From assembly GCA_027062325.1 (NCBI GenBank), contig JAMOTN010000035.1:1-39514 (forward strand): a stretch of DNA of 39,514 bases, in the 5' to 3' direction. Of the stretch, positions 12,968-38,439 are shown one piece after another. A model generated the notes under the pieces. The model was not told where the DNA came from, did no database searches, and saw only the letters and a list, made by a program, of their open reading frames with translations. Within the stretch, counting starts at the first letter, position 1; each line of letters opens with the position of its first letter. Made by a program: the position numbers and the translations under genes. This DNA comes from a bacterium. GTDB taxonomy: Bacteria > JAMOTN01.

Positions 12968-13600
12968 TTAACTTGTACCAAAAATTCTATCCCCAGCGTC
13001 TCCAAGCCCCGGTATTATGTAACCTTTTGAGTTGAGCTTCTCATCTAAAGAAGCTGCAAATACCGGAATATCAGTGTGGCTTTTGGTAAAATTCTCCACT
13101 CCCTCGGGAGCAGCAATTATGCACAGGAGTTTTATATTCTTGCCCCCGGCTTTCTTTAAGGTGTTCGCGGCTTCGACAGCACTACCGCCGGTTGCAAGCA
13201 TTGGATCAACTATAAAAAACATGTAGTTTTCTGGATTCTTAGGAATTTTAAAGAAGTAACTTACAGGTTTTAGAGTACTTGGGTCTCTATACATTCCTAT
13301 ATGAGCTACTTTGGCGGAAGGAGCGATTTTTAAAAGTGGTTCGACCATTGAGAGACCAGCTCTTAGAATTGGGGCTATGACAAATTTATCGTTTTCTAGA
13401 ATTTCGACTTCTGCTTTGGCAAGGGGAGTTTCTACGGTTGTTTTACAAGTTTTTAAATCTCGAGTGGCTTCGAAGAATAAAAGAGTTGTTATCTCTTCAA
13501 TAAGCTCTCTGAATGTGCGGTGCTCTGTCGATTTGTTCCTTAGAATTGCAAGTTTATGCTTGATAAGTGGATGATCCACTACTGTGAACATGCTATTCAA
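12968..13600 (-). CDS. upp: uracil phosphoribosyltransferase
   Basis: VVDHPLIKHKLAILRNKSTEHRTFRELIEEIT, APILRAGLSMVEPLL, FIVDPMLATGGSAVEA, GDAGDRIFGT. Confidence 0.96.
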   Translation of the reverse strand: MNSMFTVVDHPLIKHKLAILRNKSTEHRTFRELIEEITTLLFFEATRDLKTCKTTVETPLAKAEVEILENDKFVIAPILRAGLSMVEPLLKIAPSAKVAHIGMYRDPSTLKPVSYFFKIPKNPENYMFFIVDPMLATGGSAVEAANTLKKAGGKNIKLLCIIAAPEGVENFTKSHTDIPVFAASLDEKLNSKGYIIPGLGDAGDRIFGTS

Positions 13601-13606
13601 CTCCTT

Positions 13607-14152
13607 TTATTGATCTTGAATTGAATCTCTTTTGTTAAATTCGTACTCTAAGATTTTCCCAATCCGCCTCGCGTGTCTGCCACCTTCAAACTTTTCTTCT
13701 ATGAAGGCTCTTACTATGTCAAGAGCAACCTCTCTCCCAGTTGTTCTACCTCCAAGAACAAGTATGTTTGCATTGTTATGAGCACGCGCTAGACGGGCAT
13801 GAGTTGAGGTAAAGCAGAGTGCAGCCCTAATGCCTTTGACCTTATTTGCGGCAATTGAGATTCCTATACCTGTACCGCACAGCAATACTCCAAATAGAAA
13901 TTCTCCTCTGGAAACGGCCTCTGCGAGTTTAAAAGCTACATCCGGATAATCTGTAGAAACTTCTGGGTCTCCTCCAAAGTCTGTGACTTCAAAACCTTGA
14001 AGTTGCAAGAATTTTTTTACCTCTTCCTTGAGATAAGCTCCGCCGTGATCAGAACCTATTGCAACCTTTCTGAAAGATGCAGACATGTAGTCCTCTGTTT
14101 GAGTTAAAGCTGTAGTGTCCATTTTAACATCTGTTGAAATCTTCTCAGGCAT
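13607..14152 (-). CDS. rpiB: ribose-5-phosphate isomerase B
   Basis: VAIGSDHGGAYLKEEVKKFL, STDYPDVAFKLAEAV, GVLLCGTGIGISIAANKVKGIRAALC, ARAHNNANILVLGGR. ATG 14152 sits behind aaaggaggg; the track start is 14188. Confidence 0.95.
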   Translation of the reverse strand: MPEKISTDVKMDTTALTQTEDYMSASFRKVAIGSDHGGAYLKEEVKKFLQLQGFEVTDFGGDPEVSTDYPDVAFKLAEAVSRGEFLFGVLLCGTGIGISIAANKVKGIRAALCFTSTHARLARAHNNANILVLGGRTTGREVALDIVRAFIEEKFEGGRHARRIGKILEYEFNKRDSIQDQ

Positions 14153-14234
14153 GTTTGACCCTCCTTTGATGGTTAACAGTTTTTTCACTACAAATAATTT
14201 TAATAAATTGCCAGAGTTGATGCTTAAGTGTTTA

Positions 14235-19784: not shown

Positions 19785-20663
19785 TTATCTGTTGGATTTC
19801 AAAAAGTTGATAATTGAGTTGATGTGATTGTAGAGAGCTTTTTCAGAAATATGAGGATTTTCCGCGAGTTTATATATGGTTTCGAATAAAAGTAAAGGAT
19901 AGCCTTTTGAGATTTTAAATAGTGTGTTGGGAGAGCAGCTTTGGAGAAACTTTAAATTTTGGACTTTTTGGTTGAGAAAATTTAAAAATTCCTCAACCTC
20001 TTCCTTTCCAAAGTTGCGAATAGTTTTTACTTTTAGCTTTATAGCTCCGAACTTGTAAATTAGTAGATGATTTGAGTATTTATGAATAATAACGACTTCT
20101 TTACCCATGTCATGAAGTATTGCAGGAAACTCAGCTGCGAAGTGTTCTGCTAGGCCTTTATCTTGCCAAGTTTCTACTTCTCTTAAGAAGTCTATCCACT
20201 CCATTGCGATGGTCTCACCTATATCTTTTGATAGAAGTTTTAACTGGTCCGTGGTCATAAATCGGTATTTTGTGCGATGATGTCCGTATTTTAAGCCGAT
20301 GAATTGTTTTATAAGGTCCCAACACAAGGCAAATATCATATTTGGCTTAAAACGTGTATAGTCGTACGTGATTACCTGCATTGAATTTTTCTTAAGTGCG
20401 TGCAGAATGAGATCGGGTGCAAGTTGCAGTTTTCCTCCTTTGACTTTTACAGCGGTTTTGTCTTTTAATAGCTCTACGATTTTTGAGATTTTAAGTTTAT
20501 CGTGCATAAAATTCATTAAATTTGAAAAGATAGATTCTTTTATAGAAGTTTTATCTTGATTTTTAAAAGAGCGCTTATGTGGCGTTAGATTTTGTGCTTG
20601 GGCTTTAGAGTTTAATCTTTTACTAGCTACATGTTTGGTTTTAACTTTATCCACTTTCAACAC
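19785..20663 (-). CDS. hypothetical protein (no family recognised)
   Basis: 292-aa ORF with basic N-terminal ~50 residues and an ordered-looking body. Confidence 0.6.
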   Translation of the reverse strand: MLKVDKVKTKHVASKRLNSKAQAQNLTPHKRSFKNQDKTSIKESIFSNLMNFMHDKLKISKIVELLKDKTAVKVKGGKLQLAPDLILHALKKNSMQVITYDYTRFKPNMIFALCWDLIKQFIGLKYGHHRTKYRFMTTDQLKLLSKDIGETIAMEWIDFLREVETWQDKGLAEHFAAEFPAILHDMGKEVVIIHKYSNHLLIYKFGAIKLKVKTIRNFGKEEVEEFLNFLNQKVQNLKFLQSCSPNTLFKISKGYPLLLFETIYKLAENPHISEKALYNHINSIINFLKSNR

Positions 20664-20736
20664 CTCACTTTCCCCGATTTTATGTTATACCAATTGTAGG
20701 ATTAAGAAAACTTTGAATTGTTGAGGGGTGAGTTTT

Positions 20737-21159
20737 ATGCAACGTGGAGACTTTTCTATTCTTACTAAAGAAGAGGTTGACTTGGTAAGGAAAGCCATTA
20801 AGTACAGACAGAATGCTTACGCTCCGTATTCTAATTTTCAGGTAGGAGCTGCTTTGTTAACAGATTCTGGGAAAGTTTATCTTGGAGCAAATGTTGAAAA
20901 TGCTTCGTATGGACTTACGGTTTGTGCTGAAAGAATTGCTGCTTTCAAAGCAGTTAATGATGGGGAGAGAAAATTTAAAGTAATTGCTGTAGTGGCTGAT
21001 ACAGAAGAACCGGTCGCTCCTTGTGGCGCTTGCCGTCAAGTTTTGAGAGAATTTGGACCTAACATGAAGGTTATAATGGCCAATGTAAGTGGGGATATTT
21101 TAATAGCAACATTGGATGAATTATTGCCTGTTTCGTTTGGTCCGGAAAGTCTAGAGTGA
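20737..21159 (+). CDS. cdd: cytidine deaminase
   Basis: AYAPYSNFQVGAALLTDSGKVYLGANVENASYGLTVCAERIAAFKAV, PCGACRQVLREFGP. ATG 20737 with gaggggtg RBS. Confidence 0.97.
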   Translation: MQRGDFSILTKEEVDLVRKAIKYRQNAYAPYSNFQVGAALLTDSGKVYLGANVENASYGLTVCAERIAAFKAVNDGERKFKVIAVVADTEEPVAPCGACRQVLREFGPNMKVIMANVSGDILIATLDELLPVSFGPESLE

Positions 21160-25395: not shown

Positions 25396-26679
25396 TTATG
25401 AAACTTTTATCTCCACAAATTCTTCGCCAACATTTTCAATAATTCCTTTGACGGGAGAGTGATAATTAACCCCGAGGTTATTGGGAGTATCAATTTTGGC
25501 AATCGGATCGTATTTTTCAACACTTTGGCCCTTCTGGACCAATACATTTGGTATTTTTCCAATGTGAGAATTTAAATATATGCGAAGCTTTATGCCGGAT
25601 GGAATGGAAATCTCTGTGTACTCAGGTACATTTGGAAGTTCAAAGTCGGCAAGGAGTCGAGATGCGGCGAATGATGATGCAACTCCTGTCCAATCTCTTT
25701 CGACTGCTTCAAGCTTATCTGGACGTCCAACTTTTCTCAACTCCTTTTTGAGTTCAAAATTTACGCGACTCGGTGATAGTCCAAGTGGACACACCAGAGT
25801 ACAAACGTTGCAATGACAGCAGTAAGAGGCTATCTTCAGCTCTTCTAGGGGAGCGTTGAAGGAGTACTTGCGCATTATGGAAGCAGGATCTATGGGATGT
25901 CCAAGCTGCCATCTTGGACATGCCAGGGTGCAATTGTTACAAGTTGCGCACGCAACGCGTGCTAGTTGCAGTATACTTTCTATACTTTGTGTCTTCATTT
26001 TGTAAATGAAAGAATCTTTTGGTGCGAAAATTAGAGCCGATGTGGTCTTTTTGGTAAATCCACTGGACTTCTCTCCCATTGCAGGACCACCATCTATGAC
26101 TAAGTCCGTGGGGAGATTGAGTTGAGAAGCAATTAATTCTATAGGTGTTCCAATAGGCAACTTTGAAATAAGAAGTTTCTTGGGAGCAATTATTGTGACG
26201 TATCTTTCGACAAAAGGCTTGTTATTACAGCAAGCTTGGTAAGCTAAATATGCTGTTGTCAAGTTTGTAACTACCACTCCAACGTCAATGGGCAATCCAC
26301 CTGCTGGTATTCGTTTGCCGGTTGCAAGAAAGGTTAAACACTGCTCATCTCCCACTGGATAACGATCAGGAAGTGTTGCAACCTTGGTGTTTAGATTTTT
26401 AACAAGGTGAATGTATTTGGATTTAATTGCAATTGTTACGGAGCGAAAGAGTTTTTTTAGCCAAGACATCACAGCTTTTAGTTCTTCGGAGTGTTTTTTT
26501 AAAAGCCATTTGTCAGATTGAAGAAACGGCTCGCATTCTGCTGCGTTTATAAGTAGATCCAGGTCAAAATTCCATTTGGCATAGGTTGGGAAACCTGCTC
26601 CTCCTGCTCCAACGATTCCATAATCTTTGAGACACGAAATAACAGCCCTTCTATCTATTCTACATCTTGAAGGCATCAC
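25396..26679 (-). CDS. pduS: PduS/RnfC-like flavin and Fe-S oxidoreductase
   Basis: GIVGAGGAGFPTYAKW (nucleotide-binding), INAAECEPFL, YPVGDEQCLTFLATGKRIPAGGLP, two 4Fe-4S motifs CATCNNCTLACP and CCHCNVCTLVCP, C-terminal SLBB/biotinyl-like hairpin. Confidence 0.85.
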   Translation of the reverse strand: MMPSRCRIDRRAVISCLKDYGIVGAGGAGFPTYAKWNFDLDLLINAAECEPFLQSDKWLLKKHSEELKAVMSWLKKLFRSVTIAIKSKYIHLVKNLNTKVATLPDRYPVGDEQCLTFLATGKRIPAGGLPIDVGVVVTNLTTAYLAYQACCNNKPFVERYVTIIAPKKLLISKLPIGTPIELIASQLNLPTDLVIDGGPAMGEKSSGFTKKTTSALIFAPKDSFIYKMKTQSIESILQLARVACATCNNCTLACPRWQLGHPIDPASIMRKYSFNAPLEELKIASYCCHCNVCTLVCPLGLSPSRVNFELKKELRKVGRPDKLEAVERDWTGVASSFAASRLLADFELPNVPEYTEISIPSGIKLRIYLNSHIGKIPNVLVQKGQSVEKYDPIAKIDTPNNLGVNYHSPVKGIIENVGEEFVEIKVS

Positions 26680-26722
26680 TATCCCCTCTTTTGTTTGAGT
26701 ATGTGGCTTTAATTGGATAAGA

Positions 26723-27265
26723 TCACCAGTTTCTGGAAAGAAGTGGTTTTGCTGGGCGGGGAATTACCACAGTTTTTAGTATATCTTGAGTAGTTGATTT
26801 AGCAGCTTCTACAGCGGCTTTGCAGTCTGCTACATCTCCTGTAACGACAAAGAAAGAGCGACCACCCAGCCCACGGGCGATGCGCAGGTCAAGAATTGTG
26901 ATGTTTGCAGCTTTAGCGGCGCTATCTGCTGCAAGGAATGCAGAGACTATGTTCATTGTTTCAACTACTCCTATTGCTTTTATTTCTGAGTTGTTTCCAT
27001 ATAGTGCAGTTTCAACTTGTGGGTGAATTCTTGGAATTATTGTGGTAGCTATTGTGTAATTTTTGGCAGTTTCTTCGGCACTTTCTATTGCAGCTTTCAC
27101 CTCTGCGACATCCCCGAAGACTACAAAAACAAATTTCCCAGCACATATGGGCTGACTGAATAGAATTTTAACGTTTGCTGCTTTGTAAGCTGAGTCAAGG
27201 GCTTCTATACCGGCTGCGATTGAGATGGTCTCCACTATGCCAATTGCTTTGGGAGATTCGGCCAT
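26723..27265 (-). CDS. pduT: PduT-like tandem-BMC-domain microcompartment shell protein
   Basis: Two BMC domains (AIGIVETISIAAGIEALDSAYKAANVKIL... and AIGVVETMNIVSAFLAADSAAKAANITIL...). SQPICAGKF aligns with the PduT Fe-S cysteine region; C-terminal VVIPRPAKPL. Confidence 0.88.
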   Translation of the reverse strand: MAESPKAIGIVETISIAAGIEALDSAYKAANVKILFSQPICAGKFVFVVFGDVAEVKAAIESAEETAKNYTIATTIIPRIHPQVETALYGNNSEIKAIGVVETMNIVSAFLAADSAAKAANITILDLRIARGLGGRSFFVVTGDVADCKAAVEAAKSTTQDILKTVVIPRPAKPLLSRNW

Positions 27266-28108
27266 TTACTCCACCTCTGTAGTATTTGAGTTTAGCTCAT
27301 TATAACATACAAAACTGCAGCAGTATGGGAATTCGCAAGTTGAGGCAATTTTAGTTGTAGGTTTGACTATGGCGCGTATTGGGAGTTCAACAACCTTTTC
27401 ATCAAATTTCCTTCGCCATTTAGCATAAGGTCGCATGCAGCCTATTATTACCGAAGTTTTTCCAAGTACCGATCTTGTTATTTCGAGTGCTTTTTCTACG
27501 GAAAGCGTTGGAATAAATCGCCCTGTATTGAAGTTGACAATAACAAATGGCAATTTGAGAGTGTTTAGTATGTTAAGTGCAGTTTCTAATTCGATGTCAG
27601 GATTAAAAAGTCCAAATGTGAAATGAAATGCGCAAAATGCCTTTAATTTTAATGATTTTGCCTTCTCCTCTACTAGTTTTTTTGATTTTTTGGCGAGGTA
27701 TATGATTGAATCCAGAGTTGGTTTGAAGTGGCCATTTGTGAGGAGAGACCATTCTTCTGAGAGTGGGAGGTCTATAGAGAAGCTCAAATTTGGTCTGAAT
27801 GTGGTTTGGGAAAGGGATGAGAAAAATTTTTCTATGTTTTGAAGCATGCGTTCTGTTAAAAAGCCGGGATGAACGTTTAGAAATTTGATCAGAGAGAGTT
27901 TTTCTGTTGGAAGTGATGAGATGGCTTTCCAGAATAATGTAAAGTCTACTGTTAGATCTTTATTTACGCCTCCTGTGACTAAAAGGCTTGATTCTGGTAT
28001 GAGATTTGATTGGCTGCCAAGATAGACACGTTTACAATGGCTACAATTTAAAAAACATGACGACGAGGTGTAGAAGTTTGTGTGTTTGTCAAGGCTTACA
28101 GTGATGAT
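27266..28108 (-). CDS. radical SAM protein, biotin synthase/COG2516-like, AUC start proposed
   Basis: Frame is open from 28114 to 27266. The proposed N-terminus, (M)ITVSLDKHTNFYTSSSCFLNCSHCKRVYLG...VTGGV, contains CxxxCxxC at 28034-28057. ORF track starts at ATG 27847 and omits it. C-terminal IIGCMRPYAKWRRKFDE and CEFPYCCSFVC. Confidence 0.78.
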   Translation of the reverse strand: MITVSLDKHTNFYTSSSCFLNCSHCKRVYLGSQSNLIPESSLLVTGGVNKDLTVDFTLFWKAISSLPTEKLSLIKFLNVHPGFLTERMLQNIEKFFSSLSQTTFRPNLSFSIDLPLSEEWSLLTNGHFKPTLDSIIYLAKKSKKLVEEKAKSLKLKAFCAFHFTFGLFNPDIELETALNILNTLKLPFVIVNFNTGRFIPTLSVEKALEITRSVLGKTSVIIGCMRPYAKWRRKFDEKVVELPIRAIVKPTTKIASTCEFPYCCSFVCYNELNSNTTEVE

Positions 28109-28147: not shown

Positions 28148-28450
28148 TTAAATTCCTAACTGTTCTTCTAACCACGATTTATATGTACCATGAAAACTGA
28201 CATTTATTGAGATGATAGCAGGTGTGGAATATGGGTGGTTAGCTTTTATGTACTCTATTATCTCCTCCGCCTTGGAGGTGTGTGTTTTTATAATACAGGC
28301 CCATTCTTTATCTTCGTTTATTTCACCCTGCCATTCGTATACGGAGTTTATTGGCCAGTAATTTACACATGCTGCCAGTCGATTTTCTACTAAGTGTTTG
28401 GCGGTTTGTTTTACACTTTCTTCATTGGGGAAGGTTGAGTAGATGAACAT
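28148..28450 (-). CDS. cutA: CutA1 divalent-cation tolerance protein family
   Basis: TFPNEESVKQTAKHLVENRLAACVNYWPINSVYEWQGEINEDKEWACIIKT...HPYSTPAIISI. Confidence 0.96.
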   Translation of the reverse strand: MFIYSTFPNEESVKQTAKHLVENRLAACVNYWPINSVYEWQGEINEDKEWACIIKTHTSKAEEIIEYIKANHPYSTPAIISINVSFHGTYKSWLEEQLGI

Positions 28451-28620: not shown

Positions 28621-31600
28621 TTGGGGAGGATGAGGGAGTTAGTGCTGAAAGCAGGCCTGCTTGTGAGAGTTGGGATTTTGTTTTTGCTTATTTTTAGTTT
28701 GGGAGTTTATGGTGCTGTTTCGCCGGATGCTACGTCATTTTGGATAACTGCTCAATCTTTGCCCGGGGGACAAATAAAGATTCAGTGGATGTCTCTTACT
28801 ACGGATAGTGAGCCTTTGGGGTACAGACTTTTTTCAGGAGATGGAACAACTTTTCATCAGATTGCAAATATTACAGATGGCTCCACCGTTTATGTTGATA
28901 CTCCAATAGTTAATAATGATGGAGATGTTGTTTATTACTATATTGTTCCTTACGATGCTGAAAACACTGGTGGATATGCTGAGTATGGTTATCCTTATCA
29001 CTACGCAACGGCAGCTTGTGAACTTCACGGTCCTAGGATTGTTGCGACTGTTGAAATCCCCATGCAAGCTGAGCATTGGAGGCCAATAATTACTACAGTT
29101 GAGATAGAGGTTGTTGACGATTGGAATGATACGAATTATCGATACGATGATTATCCAATTTCACTGGAGTACTCTTTTAATGGAAGTTTTAACACTACTT
29201 TTATGGTTGATACAGGAAATACTGGTAGCGCTGCTGGTGGAAAGATCGTTAGGGCTTACCTTGATATGAGAACACTTGGAAATGGTGATTCTGTGGCTAT
29301 TTGGTTCAACGGTGTTGATTACGTTGGGAATGAGATAGAGAGTCAACTGAATCCACCTCCAACATATCTTGTGGATGACAAATGTTACTTTATCATAGAT
29401 ACCGATTTTGCGGCGATTACTTCCGCTAAGTACTACGATGAAAACAACAATGGAATGGTTGATGCGGGAGATAGAGTTGTAATTTTGATGGATGAAGCAG
29501 TCACTCCTACGATTGCTAATCCGGCACCAGCTGATTGTTTTGAATTACTTCCTTCGGGAACAGCCACTTTTGGAACGGGCGCTTCTATGACTATTACGAC
29601 TGGGGATTCCTCCACTACTTTTGAAATAACTTTGGGAGCGGGAGCTGTTTTGAATGTCTCTGGAGTTTACGTTCCCGGATCAACTAATGGGCCGACGGGA
29701 ATAAATGTAAGGCCAGGAGCACCGCTTCAGGATTCTACAAAACCTGATCCCAATCCAGCTGCTCCTATGGCGACGGCGAAGGATATATCGACGGATGCAG
29801 AAGAGGGACCTTATGTGACCAAAGCTTATTTTGTGGATCTAGATTCGAATGGAGTTGATGCGGGAGATCAACTGTTTGTAGTTTTTAATCAGAACATTCA
29901 GGTGAATGGCTCGCTTGGTCCTACGGCTTTTGACTTACCAGTTTATGGAGATACCTTTCAAATAGACAGCTATTATGTTAATGGGCAAACATTGGAGATA
30001 ACGGTTGCCGAACCTGCGAATTTAAAGGTTGCGGGGACTTACAACATTGGAATGAATATTGAAGGAAGTCCTTCTGGAATAAGGGTTAGTCCATCGATGC
30101 CGGCAGGCTTGATTACCAATCTTTTGGGATATGATGCTCAAGCAAGTAATCCAGTTGATATTGATTCAACAGATAGTGTTGCAGCGTATCCGATATTTGC
30201 AAGATTTTTAGATGCGGCAGGTGATGGGCCTTCTAAAGGAGATACGGTTGAGATAGGTTTTAGTGAGGCTGTCTATCCGCAAGCTGGAGCTAATGTAGGA
30301 GATTTTCTGCTTCAGGGTTATGGAGGATACACTTTTGGAGCAGGAGCTTACGTTACGCAGCATCAAACTCAGACTCTGGAGATAGTTTTGGGAGATGAGC
30401 CGTTTCTCGCTTTTGCAAATTTGAATGTGGAGGATGGTGGAATCAATGCTGTGAATGCTCTTGCTGTGAATTTAACTACTACGGGTGGAGCAAATTATGA
30501 AGATCTTGCTGGAAATCAATCTCAGCCTGCAGCTGCTGATGTAAGTGTGGTTAGTGGAGATACTACGGCTCCTCAACTTATTTCGGCAGTATTCAGAGAT
30601 TTGGATGGGAATGGGCCCGATGCAGGTGATGTGGTAATTCTTACTTTTTCAGAGAGGATTGCCTTGACTACCACTGTTACAGCGCCCACAGCTGCAGATT
30701 TTAATGTAATTAATGGAAATCTTGGAGCAAATCCCACATTTGCACTTGGACAAACTACCATTGAAATAACTTTGGATGCGGGTACTGTAATAAATCTATT
30801 TGGGGCTAATACTACGGAGATTGGCTTGGTAACCCCAAATAGTATAAGAGATACAAGCGGTAATGAGGCTGTGGGTACAGTTTACATCGCAAGCGATGAT
30901 TTTACGGGACCAATTTTGCAAAGCGCAAGGTTTTTCGACAATGTTAATACTCCGGGGGTTGGAGCAGGTGACACAATTGAGCTAGTTTTTGATGAGCCTG
31001 TTACGTTTACAGACGGTATCGATCCTGCAACGGTGTTTTACTTGACGTCGGGATCTTCTTTTGGAACAGGAGCTCAAATGCATGCTTCAACTGCTGTGAA
31101 TGTTGTTGAGATTGTGCTGGGAGATGGTGCCTCCATTCAAGTTATGGGAATTGCAGGAACTGATCCCGGAGCGAGTGGGATAAATGTTTTACCTTCACAA
31201 ACAGCTCTTACTGATGTGGCTGGAAATAGAGCTCAAACTTTGGCAGATTGGATTGATGTAACAGCAGGAAGCCCGCATGGAGCTACTTTGGAGGCTGCCT
31301 ATTTTGAGGATCTAGATGGAAATGGTCCTGACGAGGGAGACAAACTTTACTTTGTGTTCAGTGAGAATGTCGAGGCATACACAGATTTGGCTCAAGTTGA
31401 TTCTGCGGATTTTCTGGTGCATCAGGGAAGTTTGGGAACCTCTCCTCAATTTTCTTTGAATGGAAATACGGTTGAGGTGACATTGGGGGTTGGAGCTTAT
31501 CTTAACAACATATTAGCAGATGGTATGATAAATCCTACTGCAGCTTCTGTTGAGATGGCAAATCCTAATGATATTTACAACTTTTTGGGAGAAATGGCGG

Positions 31601-34600
31601 TAGGTGCAACTGATGTTGTCTCAATTGATGATGAAGGGCCTTACGTGATTAGAGTTATTTACAGAGATACCCATAATCCTCTTGGTTTGAGTGAAAGTGA
31701 CGAGGTTTACATATATTTCAACGAATACGTTACGTATGCGGTTGATACAACTACGGGACGGGCCAATTTAACAGAGGCGGATTTTGTAATAGAACCAACT
31801 GGTGCTCCTTATACGTTTGGAGTGGGGGCACAATTTTGGCCTGAAGGTGATAGCGCTATTAAGGTTGTTTTGGGGGAGAATCCCTCACTTGAAGTTTATG
31901 GAGAATACAATTCAACGTGTACTGCAGCAGGTTGTCCTGCAGGAGTGCGTCTTAACGATGCTGGTTTGAATATTACTGATCTTTCAGGAAATCCCCCCGC
32001 TGCTACGGGTGCGGTTGATGTGACTGTAGAAGATGGAGTGAATCCGAAACTTTTGCACGCAATTTTTTACGATGAGAATGGAAATTACGCTGTTGATTCT
32101 GGGGATAAAATAAAGCTTGTATTTGATGAGGCTGTGAAGATAATAAATGATTCAGTGGTTGATAGTGATTTTGTTATTCCTGTTGCAAATGACACAATAG
32201 GAAGTGGTGCTCAATTTTCTGCTGATGCCTCCTCTGAAGAGGTTGTATGGCTGACATTAGGAGCAGGCTGTAGGTTCAGGATCGATGGAGTTTTTAATCC
32301 TTCCTCTACTGCTGCTGGCTATCCGAGTGGTTTAGATGTGAGTACAGATAAAATAAGAGACTATGCTGGAAATCCTGCTTATGGTGTTGGCGTTGTTGAT
32401 ATTGAACCTTCTGATACAACGTCTCCTGTATTGATTGGATGCCGTTTTATTGATACCGATATGAACGGAGTTGATGAGGGGGATCAGCTGGTTCTGATAT
32501 TTGATGAACCGATAGAGATTTCGGGACTTGTTATCACAGACTTTGAGCTTCCAGTTACTGGAGATAGTTTTGGAGCAGGAGCTACTGCTGTGGCTGGGGC
32601 AACTAGTAGGGAGATATTGATAACGTTGGGAACAGGAGCGCATTTAAATCCGGAAGGTTACTTTGATCCGACCAGGATTTATGAAGGAGCACCTTCTGGA
32701 ATTGGTGTATTGACAACGGACCACATTAAAGATAAGTGGGGAAATTCTGTGGTGTTCAATGGATATGTTGATGTTGATAGTGGGCAGGGACCTATTTTGT
32801 TAACTGCTACCTTTGAAGATAGAGTCAGTGATGGTTGGGTTGGAACTGGAGATGTGATAATTCTTACTTTCAACGAACCTGTTAAAATAAATGGTAATTT
32901 TGACTTTTCAGGGGTCCAATTGCCTGTAAGTGGAGATAGTTTGGGATTAGAGCCAACCATTGAGGTTGGGCCGGAAAGCAACCAGATCACGATAGTTTTA
33001 GGAACGAATCCTGTAGTTACTGTGATGGGAAGTTATGAAAAAGCCTTAACTAATGCGGGATCTCCATCTGGAATAAAAATTTTACCGACTAGTAATGTGT
33101 CGGATATGGTGGATCAGCTCTCTATTGGAAATATAGCAGATATTGCAGGAAATGATGGGACAAGTCCCCAGCTTGTTACTGTGGAAATAGAGGATTTAGA
33201 TGGTAATGGTGTGGATGAAGGAGATAAGCTTTATCTCATGTTCAATGAACCTGTTATACCTACTTTTATTCACTCTAGCTACCTTGTTCTCCCTGTAAGT
33301 GCAGATACTCTTGGAAGTGGTTTTACGTGGATGCAGGATCCCACAAGTTACAGTGTTGTAATAATAAGGCTTGGGAGCTTACCAAGATTAAATCCAGATG
33401 GTGTTTTTGATGCGGCGAATACTACTGCTGGATCTCCTTCAGGACTTGGAGTTGTTCCCAATCTTCCTTTGTTTACCATAAATGACATATATGGAAATCC
33501 CCCAGAAGGTGGAACAGTTATTGATATTGCTTGGTATCCGTCGCCGGAGGCGGAGTTGATTGGGGCAACTTACGAAGATGTAGATGGTAATGGACTTGAT
33601 TCAGGAGATAAGTTAATTTTGACTTTTACTAGGGCTGTTACGGTTGATGTAGCCATACTTCCATCAGATGCTGTGGTTCTGCCGGTTACAGATGATACAC
33701 TTGGAGATGGAGCTGCTTGGGAAAGCTACTTAGGTTATAAGGCAACAGTTGCAATAATTTTAGGGGACAACCCTACTTTAACTGTTATGGGAGAGTTTGA
33801 TCCTGCAGTGGTTACTCCTGGATCTCCTTCTGGAATAGGAATAGCTTTGTCAAATGCATTTACCGCTTACAATGGGGCACATGCAACTTCGCCTGTTTAT
33901 GTGGATGTTACAGCTCCGTTTGAAAAGGGACCTAGGTTGATGCAGGCTCTATATTACGATTTGGATTTGAATGGACCTAGCAATGGTGATTTGTTGGTGT
34001 TGAAGTTTGATCAGGATGTGCAAATACCGGCTTTGCCAGCTGATCCCAATCAGTTGGCTACTTTGCCTGTTGCGATGGATAGCTTTGGAACTGGAGCTTG
34101 GGCTACGTATGGAGTAAATGTTGATACAGGCGAAAGGATTACATCAGAGGTGGCAATAGTTTTGGGAACTGGAGCAAAGCTTAATTTAGAAGGGACTTAT
34201 AATCCTGCTAATGTTACCGATCCTACAGCTCCTTCTGGTGCCAAGGTGGAGACTGTTAATAGTTTGTTGAGAAACTTTTACGGTAAAGGAGTTGAAACTT
34301 CGGAGGTTGATATAGAAGATGGACTACCTACAACTCTTATTAGGGCTCTGTGGGAAGATAGAGGAGACGTTGGAGTTAGCAGCCAGGACAGACTTATTCT
34401 GCGATTTAATAGGCCTGTAAATTTTGTTGGGAATCCGGATTATCCTAGTTTATATTTGACTTACTTGAACTTAAATCCAGGAGCAGGGGCAAGACTAGAG
34501 CCTTACGATCCCGCTAATCCATCGCCTGCTACTCAGTTTGTGTTAGTGTTCGGTGATGGGGCTTCTGCAAATATTCCTCCTATATATCCTTCAGATCCTT

Positions 34601-37600
34601 CGGCGAGTGCAATAGCTTTAAGAGAGGGACAGGTTGGATTTGTGGATGCGGCAAATGGAATCTATGTTGAGACTTACGCTACAGTGGACATTGTTGCTTC
34701 TGATTCGGTGGCTTTAATACTGACGTTTGCAGGATTCGTAGATAGAAATGGTGTTGCAGGAGCTCAAGAAGGAGACCAAGTTATACTGACTTTTAATAAG
34801 GCGGTATATCTGAATGGAGCTGGAATTAATGACTTTGATATTAAGCAGAGTTCTGATAGCTTTGGAGCTGCAACGATTACTGGCGGACCGAATGCAAATC
34901 AGTTGACGATAACATTGGGAGCTGGAGTAAGTATAGAAGTTGGTGTCACAGCTGTTGATGTATCCTCAGATGTTACTACAAATGGTCACATTAAAGATTA
35001 TGCTGGAAATAATGCAGTTCCCTCTGGTTATAAAGTTATAACTGATGCTGTTGGTCCTTACATAGTGAGAGCTATATATAATGATCCAGATGGAAATGGT
35101 GTAGGTGCAGGAGATACTTTAGAGATAGTGTTTTCTGAGGCTATTACAGCGACAGGTTTGAGCTCAAGCGATTTTATACTACCCGTTGCGGGAGATAGTC
35201 TTGGCTCTTCTCCAACTTTTAGTCAACCTGCTCCTGATAGACTTATAATAACTCTTGGTTTGGGAGCACATTTGACTGTTAAAGGGGTTTACTCGAATTT
35301 GAATCTTGGGCGTAGCAATCCGTCAGGTATAAAGTTGAATCCTGCAGGTGTTATAAGAGATGTTGCGGGAAATGCTCCGGTTGCAACAGGTGCAGTTGAC
35401 ATAGAGGGAGCTCCACCTGCGCTGCTTCTTCAATATGTGCATTTTGTTGATAAATTTTCAAACGGTGTTACACCGGGAGATGAGTTGATACTTGGTTTCA
35501 ATAAGCGCGTAATTCTTGACAGGGAGAATGTTTCAATTTCAGACTTTGTTATAGGGGGCGGAAATTTTGGAACTGGAGCAAGGGTTTTGCCGGGAGCAGA
35601 GAGCAATGAGGTAATAATACTGCTTGGGGAAAACGCAACTATTGAGAGCATAGCAGATCCTGCTGGTTCGTGGGTGGGAGTTGCGACTTCAGTTTTGACG
35701 AATTATCATCTTTACGATACAAACGGTAATCCTGCTCAGCCGGCAACTCGCGATATAGAGGTTATTGGAGATGCAGTTTCGCCACAGTTAATTGGGGCAA
35801 CTTATTACGATACCGCTGTTCCTTATGGTAGTGTGAATCAGGGAGATACACTTATCTTAACGTTTTCTGAGCCGGTTGAGATAAGAGCTCCTGTTGATAC
35901 TGCTCAGTTTTTCTTAGCGGTTACTGGAGACAGTCTTGGAGGAACAGGCTTTTCAGTAAGCCATGCGACAAAGGCTAATCAGATAGAGGTGACATTGGGA
36001 AGTGGATGTGCGCTTACTCCGGCTGGGACTTATGATACCACGACTCCTCCGCCGCAGCCTGCGGGGGCTCCATCGGGGATAAATCTTGCGATGCCTCTTA
36101 CATCTATTACAGATTATGCAGGAAACAGTGCTGTGCCCGCTGTCAATCCTGTTGACATTACAATGCTTGATGTTACTCCGCCGCACATTCTCTCAATGCG
36201 TGTTGTAAACTCTGATGGCAAGGAAAATGTTGTGAAGCCCAATGGTGATACTATTTCTTTTACTGTGCAGACAGATGATACCACTTTATCAACAGCAAGT
36301 TTTGTGGCTGACTTTTCACAGATTGGAGGTCCTGCGGCTTCGCATCCGGATACTTGCAATGCGGGAACTGCTACATGGAATAACATAAATACAGGGGCAC
36401 TCACTACAGCTACTGCTCCGATTATTGTTCGAGTAACGGATATGGCAGGGAATACTGCAACTGCTACCTTTACAGTTAATGTTATAAAAGCAGCATATTA
36501 TGTTAAGGGAGAAATTACCCCATCTTATGTGCCGCGCAACAGGAATGTTACGGTGGAGCTGAAATTGCGCCCACGCTTTGTTGATGAGAGTTATGGTATA
36601 GATTTGGTAAATGTACAACTGCCAAATGGTTATTCATGTTCTGATGTTACAAAGATAAGGGTTACAACTTATCAAGGAGAATGGACTGTCAAGACTTCAA
36701 TGCCTCTTGATTCAAATCAATATGAGGTGTTGATAAATACAGCAGGTAACATGATACAGTTTGTATTCTCTCAAGCTTTGAAGTGGCAGAATACTGATCA
36801 GTACACTATAAATTTTGAGATGCCGGTTCATACTAAGTATAATCCTGATATGCCTGATGGAACGCCTGTTGTTGTTAGTGTTGACAATACCGCTTTGAAT
36901 TCGGCTCTAAATGTAGAAGAAGAGTTCCCGGGTTCTCTTATATTACACACCGAGGGATTGGAGGTTAAGAAAGTATTGGCAAATAGTGTTATAGAGAGTA
37001 CGGGGTGGCGAATTTACTTTACTATTTTATTCAATATGATTCCTAACTTATCAAATTTACCAACTGTTCGAGTAAAATTGCAGAATGGAGTTGAGTTTAA
37101 ATTAAGAACTATTCAGTTTGCTGAGAAAACTTACAGTGGAAGTGTCTTTATTCCATTCTCTTATGCAGAAGGAGCTTCAACTTTTGAGTTGTGGATTGAG
37201 GGAGCGACTGAGCCTGATGGTTATCCAATGGCAAATTATGGGAGGGAGTTTAAACTTCCAGCAAGAGTTGTATCCATTATAGTTCCAGTTTATTCAGCAC
37301 CAAAGGAGTATTACCTGTATCTAAAATCTCCAGATGGAGTGCCTCAAGTTACGATGAGAACGCCTGCTTCTACATCTGTAGAACTCAATGTAAAAAATGT
37401 TGTATCTGATGTTTACCGAGCTTTGTTTGAAGTGGCAGAGACAGGACTTTACAGATTCAAAATCGTTGTTGGTACTCAAGAAATTTACGCTAACAACTAT
37501 CTTGTGTGCACAGGTGCAATAAGGGGTGGAAGCTCTAAATATGTGCCGGTGAGTGGCTTGGAATTGAATTTTAATGGAGTGTCATATCCTATTACAAATT

Positions 37601-38439
37601 TGAAGTTTAATGCTGTGGATAGTAAGCTTTTGCCTACAAGAGTTGAGGTTTGTGAAGATAGACTAGGAGATAGCAGGATTACCGAATTTTGGCACGTGAG
37701 TGGAGAGGTGAACTTGGTAGCCGATCAGAAATTTGGATTATGTGTGGCTTCGGGTGAAAGTTTGTTTTGGATGGGAAAGCACGTTAGTGGTGAAGGGGAT
37801 GTGGCAGTTGCGCTGGATGAGAAGGCACCACATGTTGAAGTTGAGAATTTTGAGGATAAGTTGGTTGTTCGAGTAGGGGATGATGTATCCGGAGTTGATG
37901 TGGTGAGGCTTACGGTAGGTAATAGTGAGTTTAGTAAAGAATTGAATGATGTTGAGCGATGGAGAACTGTTTTTCATATGGATACTCGTTCAGAACGAAC
38001 GAATGATACTTTGTTGGTTTCAGATGTTGGGGAGTTTTCTTTTGATGGGATGCTTCCCGGTTACTATGATGTAAAGTGGCAGGTTTGTGATGCTGCCGGA
38101 AATTGTAGTGTTGGTGTAAAGAGTATTTTGTGGCGTGGAGTGGATGATGCGAAAGTAATTTGTTATCCCAATCCTGTGACCTCTGATTATTTAAAGATAA
38201 AGTTGACAAGGTATGGATTGGATATAGAAAAAGCGAAAGTTGTGATTTATGATGCAGCAGGTGAGAAGGTTTGGAGCACTGAGGTTCAGTTTTACAACAA
38301 TGAAGAGGTTGTTGAGTGGAGGTTAGAAAGTCTTTGGGGATCAAAGGTGAAAAGAGGGGTTTACGTAGTTAAGGCTAAATTTTATTCAAGTACTGGGAAA
38401 GTGTTGACGCGTTACTTTAAGGTGTTTGTAGCAAGATGA
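28621..38439 (+). CDS. giant secreted or surface repeat protein (about 3272 aa) with about 18 degenerate repeats
   Basis: N-terminal signal-like helix (LLVRVGILFLLIFSLGVYG), FnIII-like region, tandem ~115-135 aa repeats, C-terminal CYPNP... domain. Start uncertain: TTG 28621, ATG 28630, or GTG 28642. Confidence 0.93.
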   Translation: MGRMRELVLKAGLLVRVGILFLLIFSLGVYGAVSPDATSFWITAQSLPGGQIKIQWMSLTTDSEPLGYRLFSGDGTTFHQIANITDGSTVYVDTPIVNNDGDVVYYYIVPYDAENTGGYAEYGYPYHYATAACELHGPRIVATVEIPMQAEHWRPIITTVEIEVVDDWNDTNYRYDDYPISLEYSFNGSFNTTFMVDTGNTGSAAGGKIVRAYLDMRTLGNGDSVAIWFNGVDYVGNEIESQLNPPPTYLVDDKCYFIIDTDFAAITSAKYYDENNNGMVDAGDRVVILMDEAVTPTIANPAPADCFELLPSGTATFGTGASMTITTGDSSTTFEITLGAGAVLNVSGVYVPGSTNGPTGINVRPGAPLQDSTKPDPNPAAPMATAKDISTDAEEGPYVTKAYFVDLDSNGVDAGDQLFVVFNQNIQVNGSLGPTAFDLPVYGDTFQIDSYYVNGQTLEITVAEPANLKVAGTYNIGMNIEGSPSGIRVSPSMPAGLITNLLGYDAQASNPVDIDSTDSVAAYPIFARFLDAAGDGPSKGDTVEIGFSEAVYPQAGANVGDFLLQGYGGYTFGAGAYVTQHQTQTLEIVLGDEPFLAFANLNVEDGGINAVNALAVNLTTTGGANYEDLAGNQSQPAAADVSVVSGDTTAPQLISAVFRDLDGNGPDAGDVVILTFSERIALTTTVTAPTAADFNVINGNLGANPTFALGQTTIEITLDAGTVINLFGANTTEIGLVTPNSIRDTSGNEAVGTVYIASDDFTGPILQSARFFDNVNTPGVGAGDTIELVFDEPVTFTDGIDPATVFYLTSGSSFGTGAQMHASTAVNVVEIVLGDGASIQVMGIAGTDPGASGINVLPSQTALTDVAGNRAQTLADWIDVTAGSPHGATLEAAYFEDLDGNGPDEGDKLYFVFSENVEAYTDLAQVDSADFLVHQGSLGTSPQFSLNGNTVEVTLGVGAYLNNILADGMINPTAASVEMANPNDIYNFLGEMAVGATDVVSIDDEGPYVIRVIYRDTHNPLGLSESDEVYIYFNEYVTYAVDTTTGRANLTEADFVIEPTGAPYTFGVGAQFWPEGDSAIKVVLGENPSLEVYGEYNSTCTAAGCPAGVRLNDAGLNITDLSGNPPAATGAVDVTVEDGVNPKLLHAIFYDENGNYAVDSGDKIKLVFDEAVKIINDSVVDSDFVIPVANDTIGSGAQFSADASSEEVVWLTLGAGCRFRIDGVFNPSSTAAGYPSGLDVSTDKIRDYAGNPAYGVGVVDIEPSDTTSPVLIGCRFIDTDMNGVDEGDQLVLIFDEPIEISGLVITDFELPVTGDSFGAGATAVAGATSREILITLGTGAHLNPEGYFDPTRIYEGAPSGIGVLTTDHIKDKWGNSVVFNGYVDVDSGQGPILLTATFEDRVSDGWVGTGDVIILTFNEPVKINGNFDFSGVQLPVSGDSLGLEPTIEVGPESNQITIVLGTNPVVTVMGSYEKALTNAGSPSGIKILPTSNVSDMVDQLSIGNIADIAGNDGTSPQLVTVEIEDLDGNGVDEGDKLYLMFNEPVIPTFIHSSYLVLPVSADTLGSGFTWMQDPTSYSVVIIRLGSLPRLNPDGVFDAANTTAGSPSGLGVVPNLPLFTINDIYGNPPEGGTVIDIAWYPSPEAELIGATYEDVDGNGLDSGDKLILTFTRAVTVDVAILPSDAVVLPVTDDTLGDGAAWESYLGYKATVAIILGDNPTLTVMGEFDPAVVTPGSPSGIGIALSNAFTAYNGAHATSPVYVDVTAPFEKGPRLMQALYYDLDLNGPSNGDLLVLKFDQDVQIPALPADPNQLATLPVAMDSFGTGAWATYGVNVDTGERITSEVAIVLGTGAKLNLEGTYNPANVTDPTAPSGAKVETVNSLLRNFYGKGVETSEVDIEDGLPTTLIRALWEDRGDVGVSSQDRLILRFNRPVNFVGNPDYPSLYLTYLNLNPGAGARLEPYDPANPSPATQFVLVFGDGASANIPPIYPSDPSASAIALREGQVGFVDAANGIYVETYATVDIVASDSVALILTFAGFVDRNGVAGAQEGDQVILTFNKAVYLNGAGINDFDIKQSSDSFGAATITGGPNANQLTITLGAGVSIEVGVTAVDVSSDVTTNGHIKDYAGNNAVPSGYKVITDAVGPYIVRAIYNDPDGNGVGAGDTLEIVFSEAITATGLSSSDFILPVAGDSLGSSPTFSQPAPDRLIITLGLGAHLTVKGVYSNLNLGRSNPSGIKLNPAGVIRDVAGNAPVATGAVDIEGAPPALLLQYVHFVDKFSNGVTPGDELILGFNKRVILDRENVSISDFVIGGGNFGTGARVLPGAESNEVIILLGENATIESIADPAGSWVGVATSVLTNYHLYDTNGNPAQPATRDIEVIGDAVSPQLIGATYYDTAVPYGSVNQGDTLILTFSEPVEIRAPVDTAQFFLAVTGDSLGGTGFSVSHATKANQIEVTLGSGCALTPAGTYDTTTPPPQPAGAPSGINLAMPLTSITDYAGNSAVPAVNPVDITMLDVTPPHILSMRVVNSDGKENVVKPNGDTISFTVQTDDTTLSTASFVADFSQIGGPAASHPDTCNAGTATWNNINTGALTTATAPIIVRVTDMAGNTATATFTVNVIKAAYYVKGEITPSYVPRNRNVTVELKLRPRFVDESYGIDLVNVQLPNGYSCSDVTKIRVTTYQGEWTVKTSMPLDSNQYEVLINTAGNMIQFVFSQALKWQNTDQYTINFEMPVHTKYNPDMPDGTPVVVSVDNTALNSALNVEEEFPGSLILHTEGLEVKKVLANSVIESTGWRIYFTILFNMIPNLSNLPTVRVKLQNGVEFKLRTIQFAEKTYSGSVFIPFSYAEGASTFELWIEGATEPDGYPMANYGREFKLPARVVSIIVPVYSAPKEYYLYLKSPDGVPQVTMRTPASTSVELNVKNVVSDVYRALFEVAETGLYRFKIVVGTQEIYANNYLVCTGAIRGGSSKYVPVSGLELNFNGVSYPITNLKFNAVDSKLLPTRVEVCEDRLGDSRITEFWHVSGEVNLVADQKFGLCVASGESLFWMGKHVSGEGDVAVALDEKAPHVEVENFEDKLVVRVGDDVSGVDVVRLTVGNSEFSKELNDVERWRTVFHMDTRSERTNDTLLVSDVGEFSFDGMLPGYYDVKWQVCDAAGNCSVGVKSILWRGVDDAKVICYPNPVTSDYLKIKLTRYGLDIEKAKVVIYDAAGEKVWSTEVQFYNNEEVVEWRLESLWGSKVKRGVYVVKAKFYSSTGKVLTRYFKVFVAR
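29401..36171 (+). repeat. array of about 18 degenerate protein-coding tandem repeats
   Basis: Recurring pattern: [G/S]P.L..A.Y.DLDGNGVD.GD.L.L.F.E.V ... LPV.GDSLG.GA ... I.LG.GA.L...G.Y.P....GSPSGI.V ... I.D.AGN.A.....VDI. Confidence 0.9.

Follow-up and report, generated by a model that had tools for sequence, protein, structure and literature searches.

What is a shell protein of bacterial microcompartments, with its electron-transfer partner, doing behind a radical-SAM gene in a stretch of DNA that encodes no other compartment part? The window, the whole 39,514-nucleotide stretch that was analysed, lies on contig C35 of a genome of 1.65 Mb (81 contigs, 84% complete), which we covered with targeted profile searches and by reading individual stretches. 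The original prediction offered two answers, either a stripped-down redox shell module supplying electrons to the radical-SAM enzyme, or a satellite locus belonging to a bacterial microcompartment (BMC) whose other genes lie outside the window. The features concerned are:

28148..28450, minus strand: CutA1 (PF03091, 110 bits), first gene of the strand run
27266..28108, minus strand: LipS1-like radical-SAM lipoyl synthase subunit, start ATC or lost (NF053742, 72.8 bits), probably outside the microcompartment
28034..28057, minus strand: CX3CX2C radical-SAM motif, residues 18-25 of the LipS1-like protein, located by alignment
26723..27265, minus strand: PduT-like tandem-BMC-domain shell protein (BMC-T), 180 aa (two PF00936 domains, TIGR02526)
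27143..27145, minus strand: codon for Cys41 in C-A-G-K-F, the position of the pore [4Fe-4S] ligand; in the alignment with solved PduT chains it falls on the cysteine of ICPGKF
25396..26679, minus strand: PduS-like RnfC-family NADH:FMN/Fe-S oxidoreductase, 427 aa (Pfam Complex1_51K, Fer4_17, RnfC_N)
25918..25950, minus strand: first PduS tetracysteine motif, CX2CX2CX3C, residues 244-254, invariant in an 11-sequence alignment
25789..25821, minus strand: second PduS tetracysteine motif, CX2CX2CX3C, residues 287-297, cysteines invariant

The three minus-strand genes lie exactly where the original prediction placed them: the radical-SAM stop codon (TAA, 27268-27266) directly abuts the PduT ATG (27265-27263), and 43 bp separate the end of PduT (26723) from the GTG of PduS (26679). 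With CutA they form a same-strand run of four genes in the order CutA-LipS1-PduT-PduS, flanked upstream by a divergent and downstream by a convergent gene; promoter and terminator scans stayed near chance level. The predicted lack of any further shell gene in the window also stands, as genome-wide PF00936 was found only in PduT and on contig C76, and PF03319 only on contigs C76 and C4, and Pfam scans of 20 other window proteins detected neither an aldehyde dehydrogenase nor a diol dehydratase. Beyond the run, a single open frame of 3272 aa (28621-38439), with many repeats like 'DxDGNGVDxGD...LxFxExV', is likely to encode a giant surface protein, and a minus-strand frame of 292 aa (19785-20663) had no Pfam match.

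PduT carries two PF00936 BMC domains (144 bits) and matches the TIGR02526 PduT family at 126 bits, under its 250-bit cutoff; it is ~40% identical to PduT of other genomes and its nearest solved relatives are PduT structures. The tandem BMC domains and the pore cysteine motif C-[PSA]-G-K-[YF] are both present (the latter as CAGKF), and the kept ligand position predicts a [4Fe-4S] cluster in the pore of the PduT trimer. Compared with PduS from ten other loci, the window PduS shows 27-33% identity, the eight cluster cysteines being invariant across the alignment, and its best solved relatives are RnfC. It keeps GxGxxG and both tetracysteine motifs, the second being one residue shorter than in its relatives, and the SLBB domain reported for PduS gave no score in the domain scan. 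Characterised PduS uses FMN to oxidise NADH, relays the electrons to a pair of [4Fe-4S] centres and associates with PduT, whose pore holds a [4Fe-4S] cluster (PMC2982820, PMC6325248); the midpoint potentials are -150 mV for PduS and +99 mV for PduT (PMC2982820).

The rest of a compartment was found on other contigs, as the satellite reading had foreseen. A genome-wide BMC-domain search revealed one BMC-H besides PduT, on C76, and three BMC-P, one on C76 and two on C4. The C76 locus consists of the BMC-H, the BMC-P and a CoA-acylating aldehyde dehydrogenase (NF011927, 661 bits), whilst the C4 locus comprises RpiB, BMC-P, BMC-P, DeoC and a 588-aa DeoC-like/AFOR-like protein. RpiB (L008:3642-4484; PF02502, 189 bits) adjoins the two BMC-P genes, and DeoC (L008:2233-3075) scores 283 bits against TIGR00126 (cutoff 117) and belongs to the DeoC-type aldolases of PF01791. 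On C53, PduL (NF011652, 272 bits) lies directly behind the acetate kinase AckA, and DeoB is on C11. The original prediction had proposed a search for BMC-H, BMC-P and signature enzymes, and held that a full conventional BMC operon lacking a PduT/PduS of its own would make the window genes a mere displaced piece; these loci, which between them carry the BMC-H, three BMC-P, aldehyde dehydrogenase, DeoC, RpiB, PduL and AckA but no PduT/PduS, are taken as that result, which goes against the minimal-module reading. The compartment genes on C76, C4 and C35 have unrelated genes on both sides inside the contig, so that the split is real and a contig-edge artefact breaking up one operon is ruled out for these three. 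C53 is the one exception: its AckA gene is cut short by the start of the contig, and an artefact may still have caused the separation there.

Loci for sugar-phosphate-utilizing (SPU) compartments, including some with PduS, have been described, their marks being DeoC, RpiB and an acylating aldehyde dehydrogenase (PMC4207490, PMC8217296). The genome holds all three, together with PduL, BMC-H and BMC-P; judged by these family matches, the window pair and the genes on C76, C4 and C53 are the gene set of an SPU compartment. Gene content, families, dispersal and conserved ligands are read directly from the DNA; the content fits one compartment, and we infer that the products co-assemble in a single shell. 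The same set occurs in one strand run in another genome (L047), in the order BMC-H, PduL, AckA, BMC-P, PduP, PduS, PduT, RpiB, BMC-P, BMC-P, DeoC, a run which also holds an apparent triosephosphate isomerase and a small frame, and in Muiribacterium (L083) PduS, PduT, RpiB, DeoC and a DeoB-like gene stand together. The window itself contains a second RpiB adjoining a uracil phosphoribosyltransferase (12968-14188) and a cytidine deaminase (20728-21159), a nucleoside salvage complement which would fit an SPU compartment fed by nucleosides. Past its isomerase domain, the RpiB on C4 continues for a further ~130 aa at the C terminus, which may serve in encapsulation or as a scaffold.

Behind DeoC on C4, the 588-aa protein (L008:470-2236, minus strand) resembles DeoC over residues ~30-95 (31% identity, 59 aa), matches AFOR_N over residues 169-304, and has the CX2CX3C and LGLC motifs of AFOR enzymes. 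No similar DeoC/AFOR fusion was present among the 386 other genomes searched, and a full-text literature search for AFOR with microcompartments returned no relevant title. It is conceivable, although we think it quite unlikely, that the fusion is a cargo enzyme through which part of the acetaldehyde is oxidised directly to acetate, with the low-potential electrons exported via PduS and PduT through the shell. If true, this would be a second, ferredoxin-type exit for aldehyde electrons, and none was found described for any microcompartment.

A survey of 92 PduS loci (80 from GTDB species and 12 others) places the pair among its relatives. PduT lies within 500 bp of PduS in 85 of the 92, with PduS preceding PduT in every one of these 85, and the pore cysteine is kept in all 85 adjoining PduT genes, 82 with the exact motif. 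The window order, PduT before PduS, is the reverse of all the adjacent pairs examined. Some PduS/PduT pairs have no other BMC-domain gene over 16-21 kb (e.g. L094, L104, L125, L133, L138), and in seven of 17 other PduT genomes (G012, G018, G029, G034, G051, G053, G068), one of them a single contig, the nearest BMC-H lies either on a different contig or at a distance of hundreds of kb; displaced PduT/PduS pairs are therefore recurrent. That the window locus is a mere relic, neither expressed together with the compartment nor built into it any more, would suit its distance from the other compartment genes, its reversed order and its place within a housekeeping strand run, but we hold this to be highly improbable given that both frames are intact, all ligand residues are kept and the PF00936 search found no second PduT-type BMC-T in the genome.

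The radical-SAM gene remains to be placed. None of the start codons ATG, GTG and TTG occurs in its frame ahead of the CX3CX2C motif; an in-frame TGA at 28117-28115 is followed by TTT AAA ATC ATC, and a Shine-Dalgarno-like AGGAG precedes the ATC at 28108, so the likeliest explanation is a start at this ATC or a base error in the assembly. LipS1 (NF053742) was the sole family match of the protein, at 72.8 bits under a 230-bit equivalog cutoff, and hhalign against a LipS1 profile built from three LipS1-family sequences, two of which score above the LipS1 cutoff, gave 99.0% probability. A single-sequence structure model (pLDDT 43) was too poor to use. Mutations in Thermococcus LipS1 show the importance of the CX3CX2C cysteines, C230, C276/C277 and H159 (PMC9585515), and the alignment finds counterparts in C18/C22/C25, the Cys of GCMRP, a near-C-terminal Cys-Cys and the His of AFHFTFGL. 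One LipS2-like gene is present on C62 (197 bits, cutoff 270) with the LipS2 ligands kept, GcvH is on C79 beside GcvT and GcvP, and the genome search gave no match to LipA, an absence that is uncertain in a genome 84% complete. The protein thus resembles LipS1 of the LipS1/LipS2 lipoyl synthase (PMC9585515, PMC10332631) in its radical-SAM motif, in the residues matching C230, H159 and C276/C277 and in having a LipS2 relative in the genome, but differs from known LipS1 in scoring far under the cutoff, in adjoining neither LipS2 nor a lipoate ligase and in lacking a standard start codon. Most likely it is the divergent LipS1 of this genome, serving lipoylation and unrelated to the compartment, with a putative lipoyl-synthase activity. 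A role as glycyl-radical activase or cargo maturase found no support, LipS1 being the only family match.

Could PduT and PduS instead form a stand-alone patch or complex that passes NADH electrons to the adjacent radical-SAM enzyme, with no microcompartment at all? The exact abutment of the radical-SAM gene and PduT, with PduS next, invites this view, and LipS1/LipS2 need an electron donor, for which the FAD oxidoreductase LipT has been proposed in other bacteria (PMC10332631). Set against it are the complete complement of further shell and cargo genes in the genome and the potentials of PduS and PduT, which favour flow from NADH to the pore and argue against the supply of a radical-SAM cluster (PMC2982820). 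The neighbourhood survey found a LipS1 relative beside PduS in none of the 80 GTDB-species loci and in none of 16 further PduT loci, which rules out a conserved radical-SAM/PduT/PduS triad. A module feeding the radical-SAM enzyme is accordingly very unlikely, and this half of the original prediction falls, the remaining compartment being encoded in the genome, the protein being LipS1-like and the potentials running the wrong way.

We therefore return to the pair as part of an SPU compartment. Here an encapsulated aldehyde dehydrogenase would produce acetyl-CoA and NADH inside the shell, and PduL and AckA would convert acetyl-CoA to acetate and ATP. At the C76, C4 and C53 loci the compartment genes have no linked alcohol dehydrogenase, and the two iron-type alcohol dehydrogenase (Fe-ADH) matches lie on other contigs than the compartment genes. 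NAD+ therefore has to be recycled by some other route, the PduS/PduT wire being the likeliest. Held by PduT on the inner face of the shell, PduS would pass electrons from NADH to FMN and its two [4Fe-4S] clusters, and these would leave through the [4Fe-4S] cluster in the PduT pore to a cytosolic acceptor; with PduS at -150 mV and PduT at +99 mV, the route from NADH through PduS to PduT is downhill and outward. We infer this direction of flow, and a cytosolic acceptor, from the characterised proteins. PduS might alternatively drive mainly a reductive step inside the compartment, such as acetaldehyde to alcohol, as was suggested for SPU loci in 2014 (PMC4207490) and as the missing alcohol dehydrogenase among the linked genes would allow. 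Yet its domains are those of NADH oxidation and an Fe-S relay, and in 85 of 92 loci PduS adjoins a PduT with the pore cysteine, which suggests that electrons cross the shell, so we rate a luminal donor as unlikely. LipS1, in turn, would be the second, sulfur-inserting half of a LipS1/LipS2 lipoyl synthase serving the glycine-cleavage H protein, brought into the PduT strand run by rearrangement and not by common function.

Taken jointly, we consider it very probable that PduT and PduS are a satellite of a single SPU compartment whose genes are dispersed among at least four genomic locations, acting as an NADH-oxidising wire, and that LipS1 came to lie upstream by rearrangement. Some points count against this reading: LipS1 and PduT, with stop and start codons in direct contact, should be co-translated, which would be odd for genes of unrelated function, the LipS1 score is far under the cutoff, the PduT-PduS order is reversed, and a genome 84% complete may hide LipA or shell genes. 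If it holds, an isolated bacterial lineage joins the organisms with a DNA-scavenging SPU compartment, and the genes for such a compartment can be divided among at least four separate sites, which implies that surveys based on one operon can miss pieces or misread them as new modules. A PduT/PduS pair without B12 or glycyl-radical chemistry would also be a clean test case for the NADH-export wire, a question which reviews treat as open; we found no published experiment testing PduS in a compartment of the SPU type.

Compared with described SPU BMCs (Axen et al. 2014, PMC4207490; Sutter et al. 2021, PMC8217296), this genome shares DeoC (PF01791), RpiB (PF02502), an acylating aldehyde dehydrogenase, PduL, BMC-H and several BMC-P, and the two accessory components have precedent, PduS in Atribacteria SPU loci and AckA in SPU-like loci (PMC4207490, PMC8217296). 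It differs in its distribution over at least four loci, in having the signature enzymes and BMC-H at different loci, and in the additional DeoC-like/AFOR-like fusion beside DeoC. Satellite BMC loci were defined in the same two papers (PMC4207490, PMC8217296), some as fissions of the main locus (PMC8217296), and the window pair is a satellite in this published sense: its shell genes are of one Pfam type (PF00936), and the shell gene and linked enzyme lie distant from a locus with both BMC-H and BMC-P, on C76. Unlike known satellites, the pair has a reversed PduT-PduS order and shares its strand run with CutA and LipS1. With PduS/PduT of Pdu and glycyl-radical compartments (PMC2982820, PMC6325248) it shares the adjacency, the C-[PSA]-G-K-[YF] pore cysteine, GxGxxG, the two tetracysteine motifs and RnfC_N, whereas the linked loci here have neither a B12 enzyme nor a glycyl-radical enzyme, and the task is likely to be NADH re-oxidation only. 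The arrangement is of a known kind and made of ordinary parts, scattered unusually widely.
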